From an uncultured Erysipelotrichaceae bacterium (lineage in GTDB: Bacteria > Bacillota_I > Bacilli_A > Erysipelotrichales > Erysipelotrichaceae), in the NCBI GenBank assembly GCA_947167125.1, contig CAMVGT010000004.1, positions 1 to 64,000 of the forward strand: a stretch of DNA of 64,000 bases, written 5' to 3'. Shown here in pieces: positions 49,701 through 61,978 of the stretch (the stretch's first letter is position 1; every line of letters starts with the position of its first letter). The notes beneath the pieces were generated by a model. The model saw only the letters and a list, made by a program, of their open reading frames with translations. It was not told the DNA's origin and ran no database searches. The position numbers and the translations under genes are program-made.

Positions 49701-49836
49701 TCAAAAGCAGTATTCTTGCAAAAAGACGGCAATCAAAGAATGTTTGATCCCTTATCTTAAGAAATATGTAGTATGATTTTATTGTAATCAATCACGTAAC
49801 AAATCATTGCATAGGATCAGTAAGGAGAGAAAAAAA

Positions 49837-51135
49837 ATGAAAACTATTACCTATGAAATCACCAGCCCGCTTGGAATGCATGCACGTCCTGCCGCTTTCG
49901 TTGCGCAGGCATGTGTTTCCCTGCCTTCACAGATTGTCATCAAATGCGGTGACAAAGTCGCAAACGGCGACAACGTTCTTCAGATTCTCGCACTGGACGC
50001 TCAGCAGGGATCCATTCTTGAGATCTCCGCAGAAGGCGGCGATGAAGACCACGCTCTGGCAGTCATCAAGGATGAACTGGATCACAGACTGAAGAGATAC
50101 GAGGAAGTTCCTGTTCTCAAGATCGCTTTCTTCGGTGCCAAGGACTATGACAGAATTTTCTTCAGTGAACTGGCAAGAGACGTAGGCGAAGGCGCGTACA
50201 ACTGCGATATCAAGTATTTCAATGCACGTCTGACTCCTGAAACAGCAGGCCTCGCAAAGGGCTTTGATGCTGTATGTATTTTCGTCAATGACGAATGCCC
50301 GAGAGCCGCTGTTGAAAAACTCCATGAATGCGGCATCAAGCTGATCCTGCTCCGCTGCGCAGGCTTCAACAATGTCGATCTGCAGGCTGCCAAGGAATGC
50401 GGAATCAGAGTTGCACGTGTACCGGCATACTCCCCTTACGCAGTCGCAGAACATGCAATCACTCTTGCGATGACCTGCAACCGCCGTATGCACAAGGCTG
50501 TATACAAGGTTAGGGACAACAACTTCGCTCTTTCCGGTCTGCTCGGTGTTGACCTCCATAACAAGGTTGCCGGCATCATGGGTACCGGCAAGATCGGCCA
50601 GTGCATGGCTCACATCTGCAAAGGCTTCGGCATGACAGTCATCGGCTGGGATGCTTATCCGAACCAGAAGCTGGTTGATGAAGGCCTGCTGACTTATGTT
50701 TCCAAGGACGAACTGCTGGCAAGATCCGACCTGATCTCCCTGCACGCTCCGCTGATCATGGGCCCGAACGGCACATATCATATGATCGATGCAGACGCGA
50801 TTTCCAAGATGAAGGATACAGCTATCCTCGTCAATACAGCCCGCGGCGGACTGATTGACACAGAAGCTCTGATCGAAGCTCTGAAGCAGGGCAAGTTCCA
50901 CGCTGTCGGTCTTGACGTATACGAAGGCGAAGATGCCAACGTCTACACAGACCACTCCGATGACTTCCTGGTCAATGACATCACTGCAAGACTGCAGATG
51001 TTCCCGAACGTTGTTCTGACATCGCACCAGGCATTCTTCACAAGAGAAGCACTGCAGGCAATCGCAGCAGTTACTCTTGAAAATGCACGCAACTTCAACA
51101 ACGGCGTTGACCTCGGCGCAGCTGAGTGCAAATAA
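49837..51135 (+). CDS. HPr-like domain fused to D-lactate dehydrogenase
   Basis: A 432-residue cytoplasmic fusion. Residues 1-85 are an HPr phosphocarrier domain with SPLGMHARPAAF, His15 and Arg17 in canonical positions; the regulatory Ser46 is Asn46. Residues 88-432 are a D-2-hydroxyacid dehydrogenase that reduces pyruvate to D-lactate: GIMGTGKIGQ (NAD, from 247), Arg336 in NTARGG and catalytic His397 in SHQAFFT. The site TAAGGAG precedes the ATG directly, and no stop or frameshift separates the parts. It is a single gene with its own terminator. The fusion suggests that PTS phosphorylation of His15 tunes lactate formation (inference). Confidence 0.88.
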   Translation: MKTITYEITSPLGMHARPAAFVAQACVSLPSQIVIKCGDKVANGDNVLQILALDAQQGSILEISAEGGDEDHALAVIKDELDHRLKRYEEVPVLKIAFFGAKDYDRIFFSELARDVGEGAYNCDIKYFNARLTPETAGLAKGFDAVCIFVNDECPRAAVEKLHECGIKLILLRCAGFNNVDLQAAKECGIRVARVPAYSPYAVAEHAITLAMTCNRRMHKAVYKVRDNNFALSGLLGVDLHNKVAGIMGTGKIGQCMAHICKGFGMTVIGWDAYPNQKLVDEGLLTYVSKDELLARSDLISLHAPLIMGPNGTYHMIDADAISKMKDTAILVNTARGGLIDTEALIEALKQGKFHAVGLDVYEGEDANVYTDHSDDFLVNDITARLQMFPNVVLTSHQAFFTREALQAIAAVTLENARNFNNGVDLGAAECK

Positions 51136-51163
51136 GAAACAGATTTGCATAAACATCTGACTG

Positions 51164-51187
51164 AAAAACTTCCGGAAGGAAGTTTTT
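51164..51187 (+). terminator. Terminator of the HPr-D-LDH gene
   Basis: AAAAACTTCC and GGAAGTTTTT pair perfectly around GGAA, followed by CTTT. Confidence 0.8.
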
Positions 51188-51265
51188 CTTTGTCCTGCGG
51201 AAGGGGCAGTATTTCAGGCTGTATTCTTTTTAAGGGAATGAACGGAAAGAAGGGGTTTATATTCA

Positions 51266-51342: not shown

Positions 51343-54300
51343 ATGAGCAGATTCATATCCACATACAAAACGGTATTCAGAAAAATATGCAGAATCCTTG
51401 TCTGCATGATTCTTTCATGCGCCTTTATTGTGAACTTTGATATTCCGGCAGCTGCCGATGACTGGCTGACGGAAGAAGGAAATATCCAGAATGAGCAGCT
51501 GACCGGCGAACTGATGGGCTACAGCGACGGTTATTCCGCAATTCTCTATGACAATTCCAACGGACTTCCGACTTCAGAAGCCAATACCATCATCCAGTCG
51601 AAGGAAGGTTTCCTTTGGATCGGAAGCTATGCCGGACTTGTCCGCTATGACGGAAATACATTTGAAAGAATCGATTCCTTTTCCGGAATCACAACCGTCA
51701 AATGTCTTCATGAAGATTCCAAAGGCAAGCTGTGGATCGGCACCAATGAGAACGGCCTGTTTGTCATGGACCGGGATAAGACAAAGCATTTCACTACTGA
51801 AGACGGAATCGGTTCCTCATCCGTGCGCTCCATTGCGGAAGACAATCATGGAAGAGTCTATGTCGGAACCACTGCGGGTCTGTCTGTTTATGATGAAGAA
51901 TTCAATCAGTATTATGTCAATGATCCCCGTGTGTACAGGGTTTTTGTCCAGTCTCTCAGTGCAGGGGAAAACGGGGATATCTTCGGCATCACAAATGAAG
52001 GCGACGGATTCATCATCCGCGACGGAAGAATCCATTATTACTTCAGCCATGAAGACTCCAGATACGGCAATATCACCTGTCTTTCTGAAGATCCGTTCAA
52101 CCCCGGCTATGTTTATCTTGAAAGAGATACAGGTCTTCTGCTGCACTTTGCGTATGAAGATTATGCAAATACGCTGAGCCTTGTCGAGACTTACGGTCTT
52201 GTGCAGGCGCAGTACATCGCGCATGTCAATAACAAACTGTGGTTCTGTTTCAGAAACGGCATCGGCATTCTGAATGGCGACAGTGTCCAGCCGCTTAAAA
52301 ACCTGCCGATGGACAATTCGATTTACAAGATGACCGTGGACTATGAAGGCAACCTCTGGTTTGCCTCAACCAGACAGGGAATCATGAAAATCGTCCCGAA
52401 CCAGTTCTCGGATATTTTCCGGAAATACGATCTGGAAAGAGATGTAGTCAATTCCACATGCATCATGGATGACCAGCTGTTCATCGCAACGGATTCCGGC
52501 CTGAAAGTGATCGGGAGCGACGGAAGCGTTCTGCAGGAACTGCCGGTCACTTCAATCCGTTATCCTTCCGGGGAATATGTTTCAGATCAACCGGCCAATC
52601 TTCTGTCCATGCTTGACGGGGTCCGTATCCGTTCACTGATGCTTGACAGTCAGGGAAGACTATGGATTGCGGCATGGAGACAGTACGGCATCATCCGCTA
52701 TGATCATGGCGATATTGTGATTTACTCGGATGAAAACGGACTGTATTCCAAGAATGCGCGCCGCGTTGAGGAATGCGATGACGGAACATACCTTGCGGCT
52801 GTAACAGGCGGCGTCAATGTGATCAAAGGCGATGAGGTCGTTGCCGGCTACAGCTCGGAAGACGGAATTGCCAATACCGAGATCCTCTGTGTGGAAAACG
52901 GGGATAAGGGCGAAATCCTTTGCGGCACTGACGGCGGAGGCATCTATATTCTCAAAGACGGGAAAACCATCCATATCGGAGAAAACGAAGGACTGACCTC
53001 AGGATCGGTCATGCGGATCAAATATGATCCGGATTATGCGCTTTACTGGGTTGTGACAGGAAACTCCCTGGCATGGATTTCCGCAAATGACTATCAGCTT
53101 CATACCGTTGATCATTTCCCGTATTCCAATAACTTCGATCTTTATAAAAACAAAGACGATATCATGTGGATCCTCTCCAGCAACGGCATCTATGCCGTGC
53201 CGACGATCCAGCTGATCAACAACAAGGCAATCGATCCGCTTTACTACGGAATCTCCAACGGACTTCCCTGCATCGCAACCGCAAACTCCTACAGCTGGCT
53301 GACAGAGGAAGGCAATCTGTATATTGCCGGTGCGAGCGGTGTCGCAAGGATCAATATCAATACGCCGTATGTCAATATTACCAATCTGAAAGCATCCGTT
53401 CCCTATATCGAAGCGGATGATCAGCGGATCTGGCCGGATGCGGACGGGAATTTCAAGATTGATTCCAGTGTCAGGAAACTGACGATTCACACCTATGTAT
53501 ATAACTATTCTCTGATTGATCCGCAGGTAACATACCGTCTGAAAGGCTTCGACAATTCTTTCACGACAGTCAGAAGAAGCGATCTCGGACCCATCAGCTA
53601 TACAAACCTGAAGGGCGGAGAGTACAGCTTTATCATCCAGCTGGTTGACCAGATGGGCGGCGGCAACAAAGTCATGTCCGTGAAGATCACCAAAACCAAA
53701 GCAATCACCGAATACGTCTGGTTCTATGTCACCGTGATTTCCGCTGCTCTGCTTCTGATGATACTGGGAGTCAGAAGCTATATCCGCTACACAATCAGAA
53801 AAATGGAAAAGAAGCACAAAATTGAAACGGAAAATGAGCGGATCAGAATGGAACTGAATACGGCAAGCGGCATCCAGCACAGTATGGTTCCGCATGATTT
53901 CCCGCCGTATTCCGATCAGAACGAATTCAATATCTTTGCCGTAATGGATCCGGCAAGAGAAGTGGGCGGAGATTTCTATGATTACTTCATGATCGACGAT
54001 GATCATCTCTGCCTTGTAATCGCCGATGTTTCCGGAAAGGGAATTCCGGCAGCGCTGTTTATGATGATGTCCAAAATCGTCGTGCAGAGCTACGCCTCCA
54101 TGGGCCCTTCGCCGGCAGATATTCTCACCCGTACAAATGAAAAACTGTGTGAGAACAATCCGGTTGAGATGTTTGTGACAGTATGGCTGGGAATTCTGGA
54201 AATCAGCACCGGAAAACTGACAGCGGCCAATGCCGGACATGAATATCCGTTCATCATGAAAAACGGACAGTTCTCGCTGCTGAAGGACAAGCATGGATTT

Positions 54301-54585
54301 GTCATCGGCGGCATGTCGGGAATCAAATATAAGGAATATGATCTGACCCTTGAACCGGGTGATAGATTATTCATTTATACCGACGGCGTTCCGGAAGCGA
54401 CAGACGCGAACAAGAATATGTTCGGTGAAGAAAATCTCCTGAAAGCACTGAACAGGAATCCGGGAGGAACTCCGGAAGACATCCTGGAAAATGTCATCAA
54501 GGCGGTCAATGATTTTGTCAAAGACGCTGAGCAGTTCGACGATCTGACCATGCTGTGTCTGGAATATAACGGAAAACAGAAATGA
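51343..54585 (+). CDS. Beta-propeller sensor with Y_Y_Y and SpoIIE phosphatase domains
   Basis: A 1080-residue transmembrane protein. After a signal-anchor (15-38) come two runs of Reg_prop beta-propeller repeats outside the cell (GFLWIGSYAGLVRYDG, GKLWIGTNENGLF, RLWIAAWRQYGIIRYD and others), a Y_Y_Y domain (about 690-785), one membrane segment (790-813), a coiled-coil linker, and a PP2C/SpoIIE serine phosphatase (860-1075; DPAREVGGDFYDY, IADVSGKGIPAALF, NAGHEYP, LFIYTDGVPEATD, QFDDLTML). Metal-binding aspartates are all present. The sensor half is that of hybrid polysaccharide-sensing kinases, but with phosphatase output. No anti-sigma or antagonist gene is adjacent. Confidence 0.87.
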   Translation: MSRFISTYKTVFRKICRILVCMILSCAFIVNFDIPAAADDWLTEEGNIQNEQLTGELMGYSDGYSAILYDNSNGLPTSEANTIIQSKEGFLWIGSYAGLVRYDGNTFERIDSFSGITTVKCLHEDSKGKLWIGTNENGLFVMDRDKTKHFTTEDGIGSSSVRSIAEDNHGRVYVGTTAGLSVYDEEFNQYYVNDPRVYRVFVQSLSAGENGDIFGITNEGDGFIIRDGRIHYYFSHEDSRYGNITCLSEDPFNPGYVYLERDTGLLLHFAYEDYANTLSLVETYGLVQAQYIAHVNNKLWFCFRNGIGILNGDSVQPLKNLPMDNSIYKMTVDYEGNLWFASTRQGIMKIVPNQFSDIFRKYDLERDVVNSTCIMDDQLFIATDSGLKVIGSDGSVLQELPVTSIRYPSGEYVSDQPANLLSMLDGVRIRSLMLDSQGRLWIAAWRQYGIIRYDHGDIVIYSDENGLYSKNARRVEECDDGTYLAAVTGGVNVIKGDEVVAGYSSEDGIANTEILCVENGDKGEILCGTDGGGIYILKDGKTIHIGENEGLTSGSVMRIKYDPDYALYWVVTGNSLAWISANDYQLHTVDHFPYSNNFDLYKNKDDIMWILSSNGIYAVPTIQLINNKAIDPLYYGISNGLPCIATANSYSWLTEEGNLYIAGASGVARININTPYVNITNLKASVPYIEADDQRIWPDADGNFKIDSSVRKLTIHTYVYNYSLIDPQVTYRLKGFDNSFTTVRRSDLGPISYTNLKGGEYSFIIQLVDQMGGGNKVMSVKITKTKAITEYVWFYVTVISAALLLMILGVRSYIRYTIRKMEKKHKIETENERIRMELNTASGIQHSMVPHDFPPYSDQNEFNIFAVMDPAREVGGDFYDYFMIDDDHLCLVIADVSGKGIPAALFMMMSKIVVQSYASMGPSPADILTRTNEKLCENNPVEMFVTVWLGILEISTGKLTAANAGHEYPFIMKNGQFSLLKDKHGFVIGGMSGIKYKEYDLTLEPGDRLFIYTDGVPEATDANKNMFGEENLLKALNRNPGGTPEDILENVIKAVNDFVKDAEQFDDLTMLCLEYNGKQK

Positions 54586-54627: not shown

Positions 54628-55440
54628 TTATATATTTCCAAGATACACATGCCGCAGATATTTTTCCGCAATTTCTTTCAGCCTGAAGAGAATCTGCGGA
54701 TCGGTCGGCGGAATGTGATAGCGGTAGCGGGGGAAATAGCGTGAAAGATGCAGGATCAGATCCGGATCCAGCGAAGCCAGCCATGAGGCATGTTCCTCCA
54801 TCAGTTCATCCGAATCATTTTTCCCGGGGATGATCAATGATGTTACTTCTGTATGTGTGCGCGGCACACAATAGGCAATGCATTTCTTTACGGTATTATA
54901 ATCCCCGGCAAGTTCCTGATAGAAAGCGCGGTCTCCTTTCAGATCGATATTCATCGCATCCGTATAAGGAATCAGCTTTTCCAGAATCTCCATACTGACG
55001 CATCCGTTTGTGACAAGCACGGTTTTCAGACCGTGCTTTTTCAGCAGGCGGGCACAGTCGAGAACATATTCATAGCTGATACACGGTTCATTATAGGTAA
55101 ATGCGATACCGATGCTTTCCGGATGGCGAAGGGCAATGGAAAGCAGCTGCTCAGGGCTGATGTACATTGTTTCTATATCATCTCTGGCGGAGATGGAATA
55201 ATTCTGACAGAAGGGACAGGCAAGATTGCAGCCGAAGCTCCCGACGGAGAGAATCTTTGAACCGGGATAGAATCCGTACAGCGGTTTCTTTTCAACCGGA
55301 TCAACCGCGACCGAGGTGAGTTTCCCGTAATTGCGGCATACATTTTTCCCGTTTTCATTCATCCTGGCTTTGCAGAAACCTGTCTGCCCGTCGTTCAGAT
55401 GGCAATGATGCGGACAGACTTCACAGATGATTTCAGACAT
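54628..55440 (-). CDS. amrS: AmmeMemoRadiSam system radical SAM enzyme
   Basis: A 270-residue radical SAM protein. The N-terminal CEVCPHHC is a first Cys group; FGCNLACPFCQNYSIS carries the CxxxCxxC that binds the SAM cluster. TYNEPCISYEYVLDCARL and VLVTNG are typical of this family, related to pyruvate formate-lyase activating enzymes but named for its constant linkage to Memo and AMMECR1 proteins. It overlaps the upstream AmrBA gene by 8 bases. The modification made is unknown. Confidence 0.87.
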   Translation of the reverse strand: MSEIICEVCPHHCHLNDGQTGFCKARMNENGKNVCRNYGKLTSVAVDPVEKKPLYGFYPGSKILSVGSFGCNLACPFCQNYSISARDDIETMYISPEQLLSIALRHPESIGIAFTYNEPCISYEYVLDCARLLKKHGLKTVLVTNGCVSMEILEKLIPYTDAMNIDLKGDRAFYQELAGDYNTVKKCIAYCVPRTHTEVTSLIIPGKNDSDELMEEHASWLASLDPDLILHLSRYFPRYRYHIPPTDPQILFRLKEIAEKYLRHVYLGNI

Positions 55441-56818
55441 GGCGGATTACCTCAAAGCGCTCGATGACCAGATCATCCGCATCCGGATCAAAGCCTCCTT
55501 TGGAACAGGCAATGGAGATCTGCTGTTCAACCGTATCAACACCTTCCAGATCCGGTAACAATAATCCTCTTCTGCCTCTGGAGGAACAGATGACACCGTA
55601 CTTCTTTGCGTCAAGCTGCGACCGGTCGTTCACAGGCTCTGCTTTCCCCAGCACATCGACATTGATTTCCAGGAAGGGAAGCTCCTCTTCTGAAACCGGG
55701 CTGAATCTTGGATCGCGTGAACATGCACTGACCGCATTGTCGATGATTTCCTTTGCCAGCGAATTCTTCACGGCTGAAATGGTGCCGATGCAGCCGCGCA
55801 GATTGCCGTGTTCATGGATTGACACAAAGCATCCTGCCCGGTTTGTCTTCAGTTCTTCAGGAAGCCCATCCGGCATCGGAAGAACCAGTCCGGTGCGGAC
55901 ATGGTATTCAACGGATTGTCTTGCCAGCTGAACATAAGGATCGGATGAAGCAGATGAAGACTGTATTCTGGACTTTTCTTTGTCTTCATACTGTTTCAAA
56001 AAATGCCTGTTTTCATCTTTACCGCCGATCTCATATGTAATGATTCCGTAGCCGACACCGAAAGTCGCTTCATGCGAAAGAACGTGCGGGGTGACTGAAA
56101 TACCATCCAGGATTCCTGCCAGAATCACAAAGGCCCTGTGTCCGCATTCCATGCAGGCATCCAGGAAAGAAGGGGAGTAGCCGAACAGTTCATCAAACCG
56201 TCCGCTGCCCATTGTCTTCATGATCTTTTCATCATATTCAGGACCTTCCGGCTTGAATCCATAAGGACCGTCTGTCTTCTGGCAATGTGCCAGATCGCCG
56301 CTGGCGATCACTGCGATTCTGCGGTTCAGCAGTTCAGCTGTTTTAGCGATATACTGACCGAAGCGGTAGTGCATCGGCAGGGACAGTCCGCTGAGTCCGA
56401 TCCGCACAATCGGACAGTCGGGCAGGTAAGGCTTCAGGAAATAAAGCGGCACCATCGTTCCATGGTCAAGATCCGGATCCTTGTCATATTCAGTTCCGCC
56501 GGGAAAACCGGCCTGTTCCAGCATCTCTGTCAGCGTGTGTGTAAATTCTTCATCATATTCTTTTTCAAATTCCACCCGCGGCGCACGGAAACGGGCCATA
56601 TCTCCATATGCCTTTGAACCTTTGGAAATGTTGAACCAGTCTCTGTACATTAATGCGTGCGGAGAAAGAATGACAACAGTATCCGGATTTGCGCCGGCTA
56701 TTTCCTTCATTGCCTGATCATAGGCCTGCAATGTATCGGAAATCTTCTGTTCCTCACCTTTTCCGACTTCATGCAATGCAATCGGAGGATGGGGAACCAT
56801 GACAGCTTTTACAATCAT
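55433..56818 (-). CDS. AmmeMemoRadiSam proteins B and A fused (Memo-AMMECR1)
   Basis: A 461-residue fusion. Residues 1-270 are a Memo/LigB-type dioxygenase-fold domain (VMVPHPPIALHEVG, ILSPHALMYRDWF, LDHGTMVPLYFL, ASGDLAHC), with His residues that could bind a metal. Residues 290-461 are an AMMECR1 domain with GCFVSIHEHGNLRGCIGTI. The start at 56818 follows AGGAGG. With AmrS it makes the complete three-part system in two genes. Biological role in bacteria unsettled. Confidence 0.87.
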   Translation of the reverse strand: MIVKAVMVPHPPIALHEVGKGEEQKISDTLQAYDQAMKEIAGANPDTVVILSPHALMYRDWFNISKGSKAYGDMARFRAPRVEFEKEYDEEFTHTLTEMLEQAGFPGGTEYDKDPDLDHGTMVPLYFLKPYLPDCPIVRIGLSGLSLPMHYRFGQYIAKTAELLNRRIAVIASGDLAHCQKTDGPYGFKPEGPEYDEKIMKTMGSGRFDELFGYSPSFLDACMECGHRAFVILAGILDGISVTPHVLSHEATFGVGYGIITYEIGGKDENRHFLKQYEDKEKSRIQSSSASSDPYVQLARQSVEYHVRTGLVLPMPDGLPEELKTNRAGCFVSIHEHGNLRGCIGTISAVKNSLAKEIIDNAVSACSRDPRFSPVSEEELPFLEINVDVLGKAEPVNDRSQLDAKKYGVICSSRGRRGLLLPDLEGVDTVEQQISIACSKGGFDPDADDLVIERFEVIRHV

Positions 56819-56904
56819 AAGAGCCTCCTGTTTCATCGATTATCTTTACATCATTTCGTCAATTTCATTATACCTGTGTGCAGAAAACGCAGGACACATA
56901 AAAC

Positions 56905-60616: not shown

Positions 60617-61978
60617 TTATGCAGACTTTTTGACCATAGATGCTCTGTTGGAAAGCGGTATAACAATATTTGAACAAACAAGCATAATCAGATCCACAAG
60701 GTTGGTCAGATTTCTGAATCCAAAGGACCTGTGGATCAGAAGGCTGATCTTGTTGTTATTCGCTTCCACTCTGGCATTACTGATACCCGTTCGTATGAAG
60801 TTCATGATGAATTCCTTATGCCGCTTGATCTTCCGTCCCAGTTCGACAAATGTTGGTATCCTGCATCTCTGTGCCCATGACAGCCAATGATTCAGTTCCA
60901 TCTCTGCTTTGATCGGATCTTTGGTCTTCAGCAGAAGTCTCAATGATTCCTTCATCATATATGCACGGTACAGGCGATTGTCATTTGCCTGTATCATTGC
61001 CAGCTTCACTTCCTGATTCTCTGTCAGATTCTCAGGTGCTTTGCCTAATGCGTAACGGCTGTTCTTGATCTCTTTGGCCCTTTCCTTAGCGGTTGACAGG
61101 ATCTTTGATGCCTGATCATTTTCTGCCGGTCTTCCACGTCCGCGTTTGATTTCTTTCTTCAGTGTTTTGAGTTCATTGTTGGCTTCTCTCCAGGCTTCCT
61201 TGCGCAGCTCATCCAAAGCCTGCGTTGCCCATTCAACGACATGAAAAGGATCCGTACACCTGCAGGCATTATTGCAGTATTCATCAACACAGGCTGTGAT
61301 CCATCTTGCACCGTCTCCGGATACCACTTCAATGGCATCCCTCTGTTCCTGTGTGAGCTGCTGAAAGAAAGCCTCCAGCACAGATTTTCCATGGCCTTCA
61401 GCCACCCACACAACGGTATTGGTGTCATGATTTACTACGGTTGTGATGTACTTATGTCCTTTGGAATATGAGGTTTCATCAATTCCTATCCGCTTGAGCT
61501 CATCCAGTCTCGATGAAGTATCCGGCTCAAGATATTCTCTGGCCCTGGATACACATCTGCCGACTGTTTCCCAGGATATCCGCATATAGGAGGATACTGC
61601 ACTCTTGTTCAGTCTTCTGGCCATCCAGGCAACAGTCAGATCAAAATCCTTGGTAAATCTGCTTTTTGGAAAAGCCCATGGAACCGCAGCTGTGACTACT
61701 CCATGCACAGGGCATGTTACTCTGGGAGATTCACTCTCGATCTCAACGAGAAGTCCGCCGAAGTCAAGTGCGCGCCAATGACTCAGCTCATGGGAAGAAT
61801 CGTAGATAGGCAGCCGCCTGCCATTATCGCAATACGGGCATCTGCACTGCTTATTCTTATGCGGTCTTGCGTGGACGATCAGCTTGGATTCGCCTTTCGC
61901 TGTTTTAGTCAATTCCATGGAATTGACAACCATACTCTTGACACCAAGAGCTTTCTTCACTACCGTATTAACTGTCAT
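60617..61978 (-). CDS. ISL3-family transposase
   Basis: A 453-residue transposase. An N-terminal zinc ribbon (QCRCPYCDNGRRL, then TCPVHG) is followed by a helix-turn-helix (LNKSAVSSYMRISWETVGR), and a DDE core starting IGIDETSYSKGHKYITTVV, with the second Asp in TDPFHVVEWATQAL and the Glu in VEANNNKISLL. The protein is full length, so the element may still be mobile. Confidence 0.92.
   Translation of the reverse strand: MTVNTVVKKALGVKSMVVNSMELTKTAKGESKLIVHARPHKNKQCRCPYCDNGRRLPIYDSSHELSHWRALDFGGLLVEIESESPRVTCPVHGVVTAAVPWAFPKSRFTKDFDLTVAWMARRLNKSAVSSYMRISWETVGRCVSRAREYLEPDTSSRLDELKRIGIDETSYSKGHKYITTVVNHDTNTVVWVAEGHGKSVLEAFFQQLTQEQRDAIEVVSGDGARWITACVDEYCNNACRCTDPFHVVEWATQALDELRKEAWREANNELKTLKKEIKRGRGRPAENDQASKILSTAKERAKEIKNSRYALGKAPENLTENQEVKLAMIQANDNRLYRAYMMKESLRLLLKTKDPIKAEMELNHWLSWAQRCRIPTFVELGRKIKRHKEFIMNFIRTGISNARVEANNNKISLLIHRSFGFRNLTNLVDLIMLVCSNIVIPLSNRASMVKKSA

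Follow-up and report, generated by a model that had tools for sequence, protein, structure and literature searches.

We examined a 64,000-nt stretch of DNA (hereafter the window; contig CAMVGT010000004.1, assembly GCA_947167125.1) from an uncultured Erysipelotrichaceae bacterium, in which one gene (49837..51135, + strand) encodes a 432-aa protein that joins an HPr phosphocarrier domain to an LdhA-type D-lactate dehydrogenase (D-LDH). Comparison of 80 distinct full-length fused proteins, aligned for conservation and for a dehydrogenase tree, indicates that the fusion is old, conserved, widespread and real, with many carriers among gut and rumen bacteria, and the conservation of His15 in all 80 copies suggests that sugar import and lactate production are directly linked in a way not yet described. 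We lean towards reading the protein as a D-LDH with its own sensor of the phosphotransferase system (PTS): His15 would be phosphorylated by enzyme I (EI) from phosphoenolpyruvate (PEP), and its phosphorylation state would set D-LDH activity.

The fused protein

The gene is a single stop-free open reading frame in the translated window, running from the ATG at 49837 to the TAA at 51135, and its product carries Pfam domains of both families. An earlier reading of this DNA from the sequence alone (the sequence-only reading) had described one unbroken gene for HPr plus a full D-2-hydroxyacid dehydrogenase, with His15 and Arg17 in place, Asn46 instead of Ser46, and the NAD, Arg and His motifs present; the translation and the alignment bear out each of these points.

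The HPr domain (aa 4-79; 49846..50073, + strand) matches Pfam PF00381 with an E-value of 6.8e-19 and solved HPrs with an E-value of 2e-14, and it clears the curated cut-offs of both PF00381 (68.1 bits vs 23) and TIGR01003 (57.7 vs 47.9). Folded alone from its single sequence, the domain gave only a moderate model, and the AlphaFold2 (AF2) model based on the family alignment was used instead; there the domain reaches a per-residue confidence (pLDDT) of about 90 or more, and the predicted elements (strand 2-7, helix 16-27, strands 32-37 and 40-43, helix 47-51, strand 60-66, helix 70-84) follow the b-a-b-b-a-b-a order of the open-faced b-sandwich that defines the HPr family.

Among the 80 fused proteins, Gly13, His15, Ala16 and Arg17 are invariant (80/80), so that the phospho-acceptor loop (His15-Ala16-Arg17 codons, 49879..49887, + strand) is complete in every copy. 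This is not a property of the domain at large: the mean column entropy is 1.43 bits in the HPr domain vs 0.62 in the enzyme, and only 6 of the 84 non-start columns of the HPr part are invariant, His15 and Arg17 among them (chance placement about 0.004). Synonymous codon changes are found beneath both residues. Judged from this alignment, the phosphorylation site of the HPr domain is under selection.

The position of the HPr-kinase serine follows the opposite pattern. According to the alignment of fused proteins and canonical HPrs, the Asn46 codon of the window's gene (49972..49974, + strand) lies where Ser46 is present in 31/31 free-standing canonical HPrs of the same bacterial family, while the fused proteins have N in 72, D in 4 and S in 1 of the 80 copies (i.e. 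the serine is lost in 79/80). The Ser46 contrast, first noticed in one sequence, is thus by alignment a property of the whole fusion family, and the escape from Ser46 control proposed in the sequence-only reading is upheld to that extent. Together, the comparative data support a functional phospho-acceptor His15 combined with a lost HPr-kinase site, and so back the interpretation of the sequence-only reading in part.

A short variable linker (about aa 85-93; 50089..50115, + strand), delimited by alignment column variability and AF2 secondary structure and nearly constant in length across the fused proteins, leads into the D-LDH (about aa 94-425; 50116..51111, + strand), which was identified by Pfam (2-Hacid_dh at aa 122-423 and 2-Hacid_dh_C at aa 209-399), solved relatives, alignment and structure comparison. 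R336, E363 and H397, which we take by motif and family knowledge to be the catalytic residues, are invariant in the 80 homologues, as are the glycines of the NAD motif G249-T-G-K-I-G254 (GxGxxG). The best solved relatives are the D-LDHs of F. nucleatum, E. coli, Salmonella and P. aeruginosa; the closest is that of F. nucleatum (5z21; sequence E-value 7e-95), on which the AF2 model superposes with a Z-score of 32.2 and an rmsd of 4.8 over 314 residues at 50% identity. The AF2 monomer as a whole has a pLDDT of 84.7 and a pTM of 0.72, with low confidence at enzyme stretches 220-233 and 363-368. By motifs, closest relative and predicted fold, the enzyme part is a catalytically complete LdhA-type D-LDH. 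The fused clade also carries a five-residue insertion (aa 115-119; 50179..50193, + strand) and a three-residue insertion (aa 308-310; 50758..50766, + strand), neither of which is present in the 15 closest unfused D-LDHs compared.

Distribution and origin of the fusion

The search for the two-domain architecture across genomes that the sequence-only reading had called for returned the 80 distinct full-length proteins described above. The fusion is found in 17 of 146 genomes sampled from the window's family (in one of them split over two contigs), a 295-genome sample of the order contains many further fusions in two families and many genera, and a scan of 84,980 species genomes gave about 70 loci with the fusion. 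Cultured carriers include Kandleria vitulina DSM 20405 and Floccifex porci. All three Pfam domains are found in 52/52 scanned members of one alignment (A1), and the same junction recurs in dozens of independent assemblies; these observations and the 80 distinct homologues rule out an assembly or frameshift artefact joining two genes, including the sequencing error that the sequence-only reading had named as a possible refutation.

Identity is about 54% or less for relatives that have no HPr. A branch of the dehydrogenase tree with support 100/100 separates all 80 fused proteins from the rest, which is consistent with a single origin of the fusion; several unfused rows are long, which makes the order of the deep forks uncertain. 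The fusion occurs across Erysipelotrichales and also in Lachnospiraceae- and Oscillospiraceae-like metagenome-assembled genomes (MAGs). For MAGs with these two labels (L049-L112), RpoB is 53-55% identical to that of the window's genome vs 60-80% for the fusion protein, and the RpoB sequences of such carriers group apart from Erysipelotrichales RpoB (in a comparison run without two rows). Horizontal transfer between classes of Bacillota is therefore the likely reading of these identities, with the caveat of MAG binning.

PTS and L-lactate dehydrogenase genes in carriers

Besides the fusion, the window's genome has genes for a canonical HPr, EI and HPr kinase, and genes for PTS enzyme II (EII) permeases are found within the window itself, so that the machinery to phosphorylate His15 exists. 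In the family sample, all fused genomes (17/17) have EI; we rejected EI presence as a discriminator of fused and unfused genomes, as 142 of the 146 genomes have a hit. Nearly all of these fused genomes also have a free canonical HPr (G115 is without a copy of canonical strength). As a separate observation, the four genomes of one genus (g19; G018, G068, G096 and G119) have an unfused LdhA-type D-LDH, and 3/4 of those sampled are without a convincing EI hit; possibly this single genus has no PTS and hence no use for the fusion.

No NAD-dependent L-lactate dehydrogenase (L-LDH) was found in the window's genome. In the family sample, 2 of 17 fused genomes have L-LDH, against 87 of 129 without the fusion (Fisher p 1.4e-5, a value inflated by shared ancestry, as the contrast ignores phylogeny). 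Within the window's genus, two genomes have the fusion without L-LDH (G000 and G103) and four have L-LDH without the fusion (G031, G076, G126 and G142). Among 17 Clostridia-like carrier MAGs, none has an L-LDH above the curated cut-off, and three have weaker matches that span the model wholly or for the most part.

Genomic context

The sequence AAGGAGAG, which resembles a ribosome-binding site, lies immediately 5' of the start of the fusion gene, and a putative intrinsic terminator hairpin (51163..51188, + strand; consensus match only) follows the gene. Further upstream, the 13-base element TGTAGTATNATTT (49767..49779, + strand), with a -10-like TATGAT, matches the window exactly at this one place; across 756 kb of homologous loci it has 15 exact matches, and every one (15/15) sits 54-73 nt upstream of the start codon of a fused gene. 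It is conserved in the window's close relatives while the surrounding DNA diverges, and is absent from more distant carriers. The element probably serves as the promoter, with a constraint that is unusually strong. A cre site at the promoter was rejected, as no cre-like match in the window lies near the fusion gene, and Rex-operator-like sites 5' of the gene were seen in only 8 scanned loci, with up to 3 mismatches and at inconsistent positions. No conserved operon partner was found: the neighbouring genes vary across relatives and are not PTS genes, so the fusion gene stands alone.

Other genes observed in the window include one for a 1080-aa protein with two-component-regulator propeller repeats and a C-terminal SpoIIE phosphatase (51343-54585), a gene with AMMECR1 and LigB-like domains (55433-56836) adjoining a radical SAM gene (54628-55440), and an ISL3-family transposase (60617-61978, - strand). 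The pair at 54628-56836 (- strand) forms an AmmeMemoRadiSam-type set.

Proposed mechanism and alternatives

In the proposed D-LDH with its own PTS sensor, EI would load His15 from PEP, as expected from established PTS biochemistry, and the phosphate would be drained by EII/EIIA proteins or pass back via EI, so that sugar flow would unload it. The phosphorylation state of His15 would thereby track the PEP/pyruvate ratio and the PTS sugar flux, and would make the D-LDH more or less active. Loss of Ser46 would remove the HPr-kinase site, so that only the PEP branch would be read. In V. vulnificus, pyruvate kinase A is bound and stimulated by dephospho-HPr (PMC5987630), a precedent in which the phosphorylation state of HPr sets the activity of a pyruvate-node enzyme; that HPr is free and acts in trans, whereas the HPr of the fusion is covalently joined to the next enzyme, LDH. 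The closest solved enzymes are tetrameric allosteric D-LDHs, two of three being activated by fructose 1,6-bisphosphate (PMC4230899). Because of the stimulation by dephospho-HPr and the allostery of the closest D-LDHs, it is the dephospho form that would more likely be the more active one (when PTS sugar flows and pyruvate and NADH are plentiful). As L-LDH is absent from most fused genomes, the fusion enzyme would be a main route from pyruvate to lactate.

Several points weigh against this reading. Conservation of His15 shows need, not purpose, and is equally expected under docking or plain phosphotransfer. Many HPr residues at 20-28 and 44-58 differ from the canonical HPr of the same family, so that affinity for EI is not assured, and the AF2 monomer establishes no interface between HPr and enzyme. 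K. vitulina and F. porci keep both L-LDH and the fusion, and the L-LDH contrast is open to the effect of shared ancestry noted above.

The main rival, which we consider unlikely but worth keeping in view, is that HPr tethers the dehydrogenase to EI, so that the fusion would take the phosphoryl group on His15 and pyruvate in its active site, without allostery. EI releases pyruvate when it takes phosphate from PEP, EI is present in the fused genomes, the linker is short and nearly constant in length, and conservation of His15 and Arg17 is equally expected; however, tethering alone would not obviously demand strict His15 conservation in all lineages, and pyruvate diffuses fast and has another large source in pyruvate kinase. 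Rather improbable is a bifunctional protein in which the HPr domain simply gives EIIs an additional phosphocarrier, with the dehydrogenase acting on its own: the phospho-acceptor loop is intact, and loss of Ser46 would free a carrier from inhibition by HPr kinase, but nearly all fused genomes of the sample already have a free canonical HPr, the neighbours are neither PTS genes nor conserved, and there would be no reason for a lasting fusion to D-LDH specifically.

We have serious doubts that a different 2-keto acid (e.g. 2-ketobutyrate) is the main substrate of the dehydrogenase, which would break the link to lactate: the F. nucleatum D-LDH (5z21) has a kcat/S0.5 2-fold higher for 2-ketobutyrate than for pyruvate, but the relatives from E. 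coli and P. aeruginosa show narrow specificity for pyruvate (PMC4230899), and the missing L-LDH in most fused genomes fits a role in lactate production. Very improbable is a structural or solubility module with a vestigial histidine, which would suit the otherwise variable domain but not the retention of exactly the phosphorylation loop within it, nor the synonymous substitutions under the His15 and Arg17 codons.

Comparison with known systems

Both halves belong to known families, and the principle (PTS phosphorylation state controlling a metabolic enzyme) is known, while the covalent form is unusual. The whole enzyme part resembles the tetrameric allosteric D-LDHs of E. coli, Salmonella, P. 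aeruginosa and F. nucleatum (PDB 5z1z, 4cuj, 5z20 and 5z21; 46-50% identity, Z-scores 30-32), with catalytic and NAD residues in common; these enzymes are without an HPr domain, whereas the fused enzymes form their separate, fully supported group (100/100) with the insertions at 115-119 and 308-310. With the HPr family (PF00381, TIGR01003) the fusion shares the fold, His15 and Arg17, but it is joined to an oxidoreductase, has Ser46 replaced and has diverged from the canonical HPr of its own genome. Crh of Bacillus is an HPr-like domain specialised for regulation that keeps Ser46 and is without His15; the fusion, also HPr-like, shows the opposite pattern, with His15 kept and Ser46 lost. HPr also occurs within larger polypeptides in multidomain PTS proteins (FPr/DTP and EI-HPr-EIIA fusions), where its partners are PTS phosphotransfer domains; the partner here is a metabolic dehydrogenase instead. 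No description of the HPr-D-LDH architecture was found in the open-access literature searched, which leaves out most subscription journals; the remark of the sequence-only reading that no regulatory protein of this form is known to have been described agrees with this search, and the absence is weak evidence of novelty.

Implications

We regard as evenly balanced the broader proposal of a widespread, horizontally spread one-protein fermentation switch, in which His15 would read the PEP/pyruvate and sugar-uptake state and set lactate output with neither a transcription factor nor a diffusible effector in between, replacing the separate L-LDH that relatives have. Cultured carriers (K. vitulina DSM 20405 and F. 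porci) make the idea directly testable, and the fusion provides a modular template for placing metabolic enzymes under PTS control. In low-methane sheep, the D-LDH gene of Sharpea azabuensis is reported to be highly expressed, 12-fold up (PMC5069950). If the proposal is true, bacteria of ruminant, pig and other guts would have a single-protein link from sugar import to fermentation product, in habitats in which acidosis and methane yield are influenced by the amount of lactate made.
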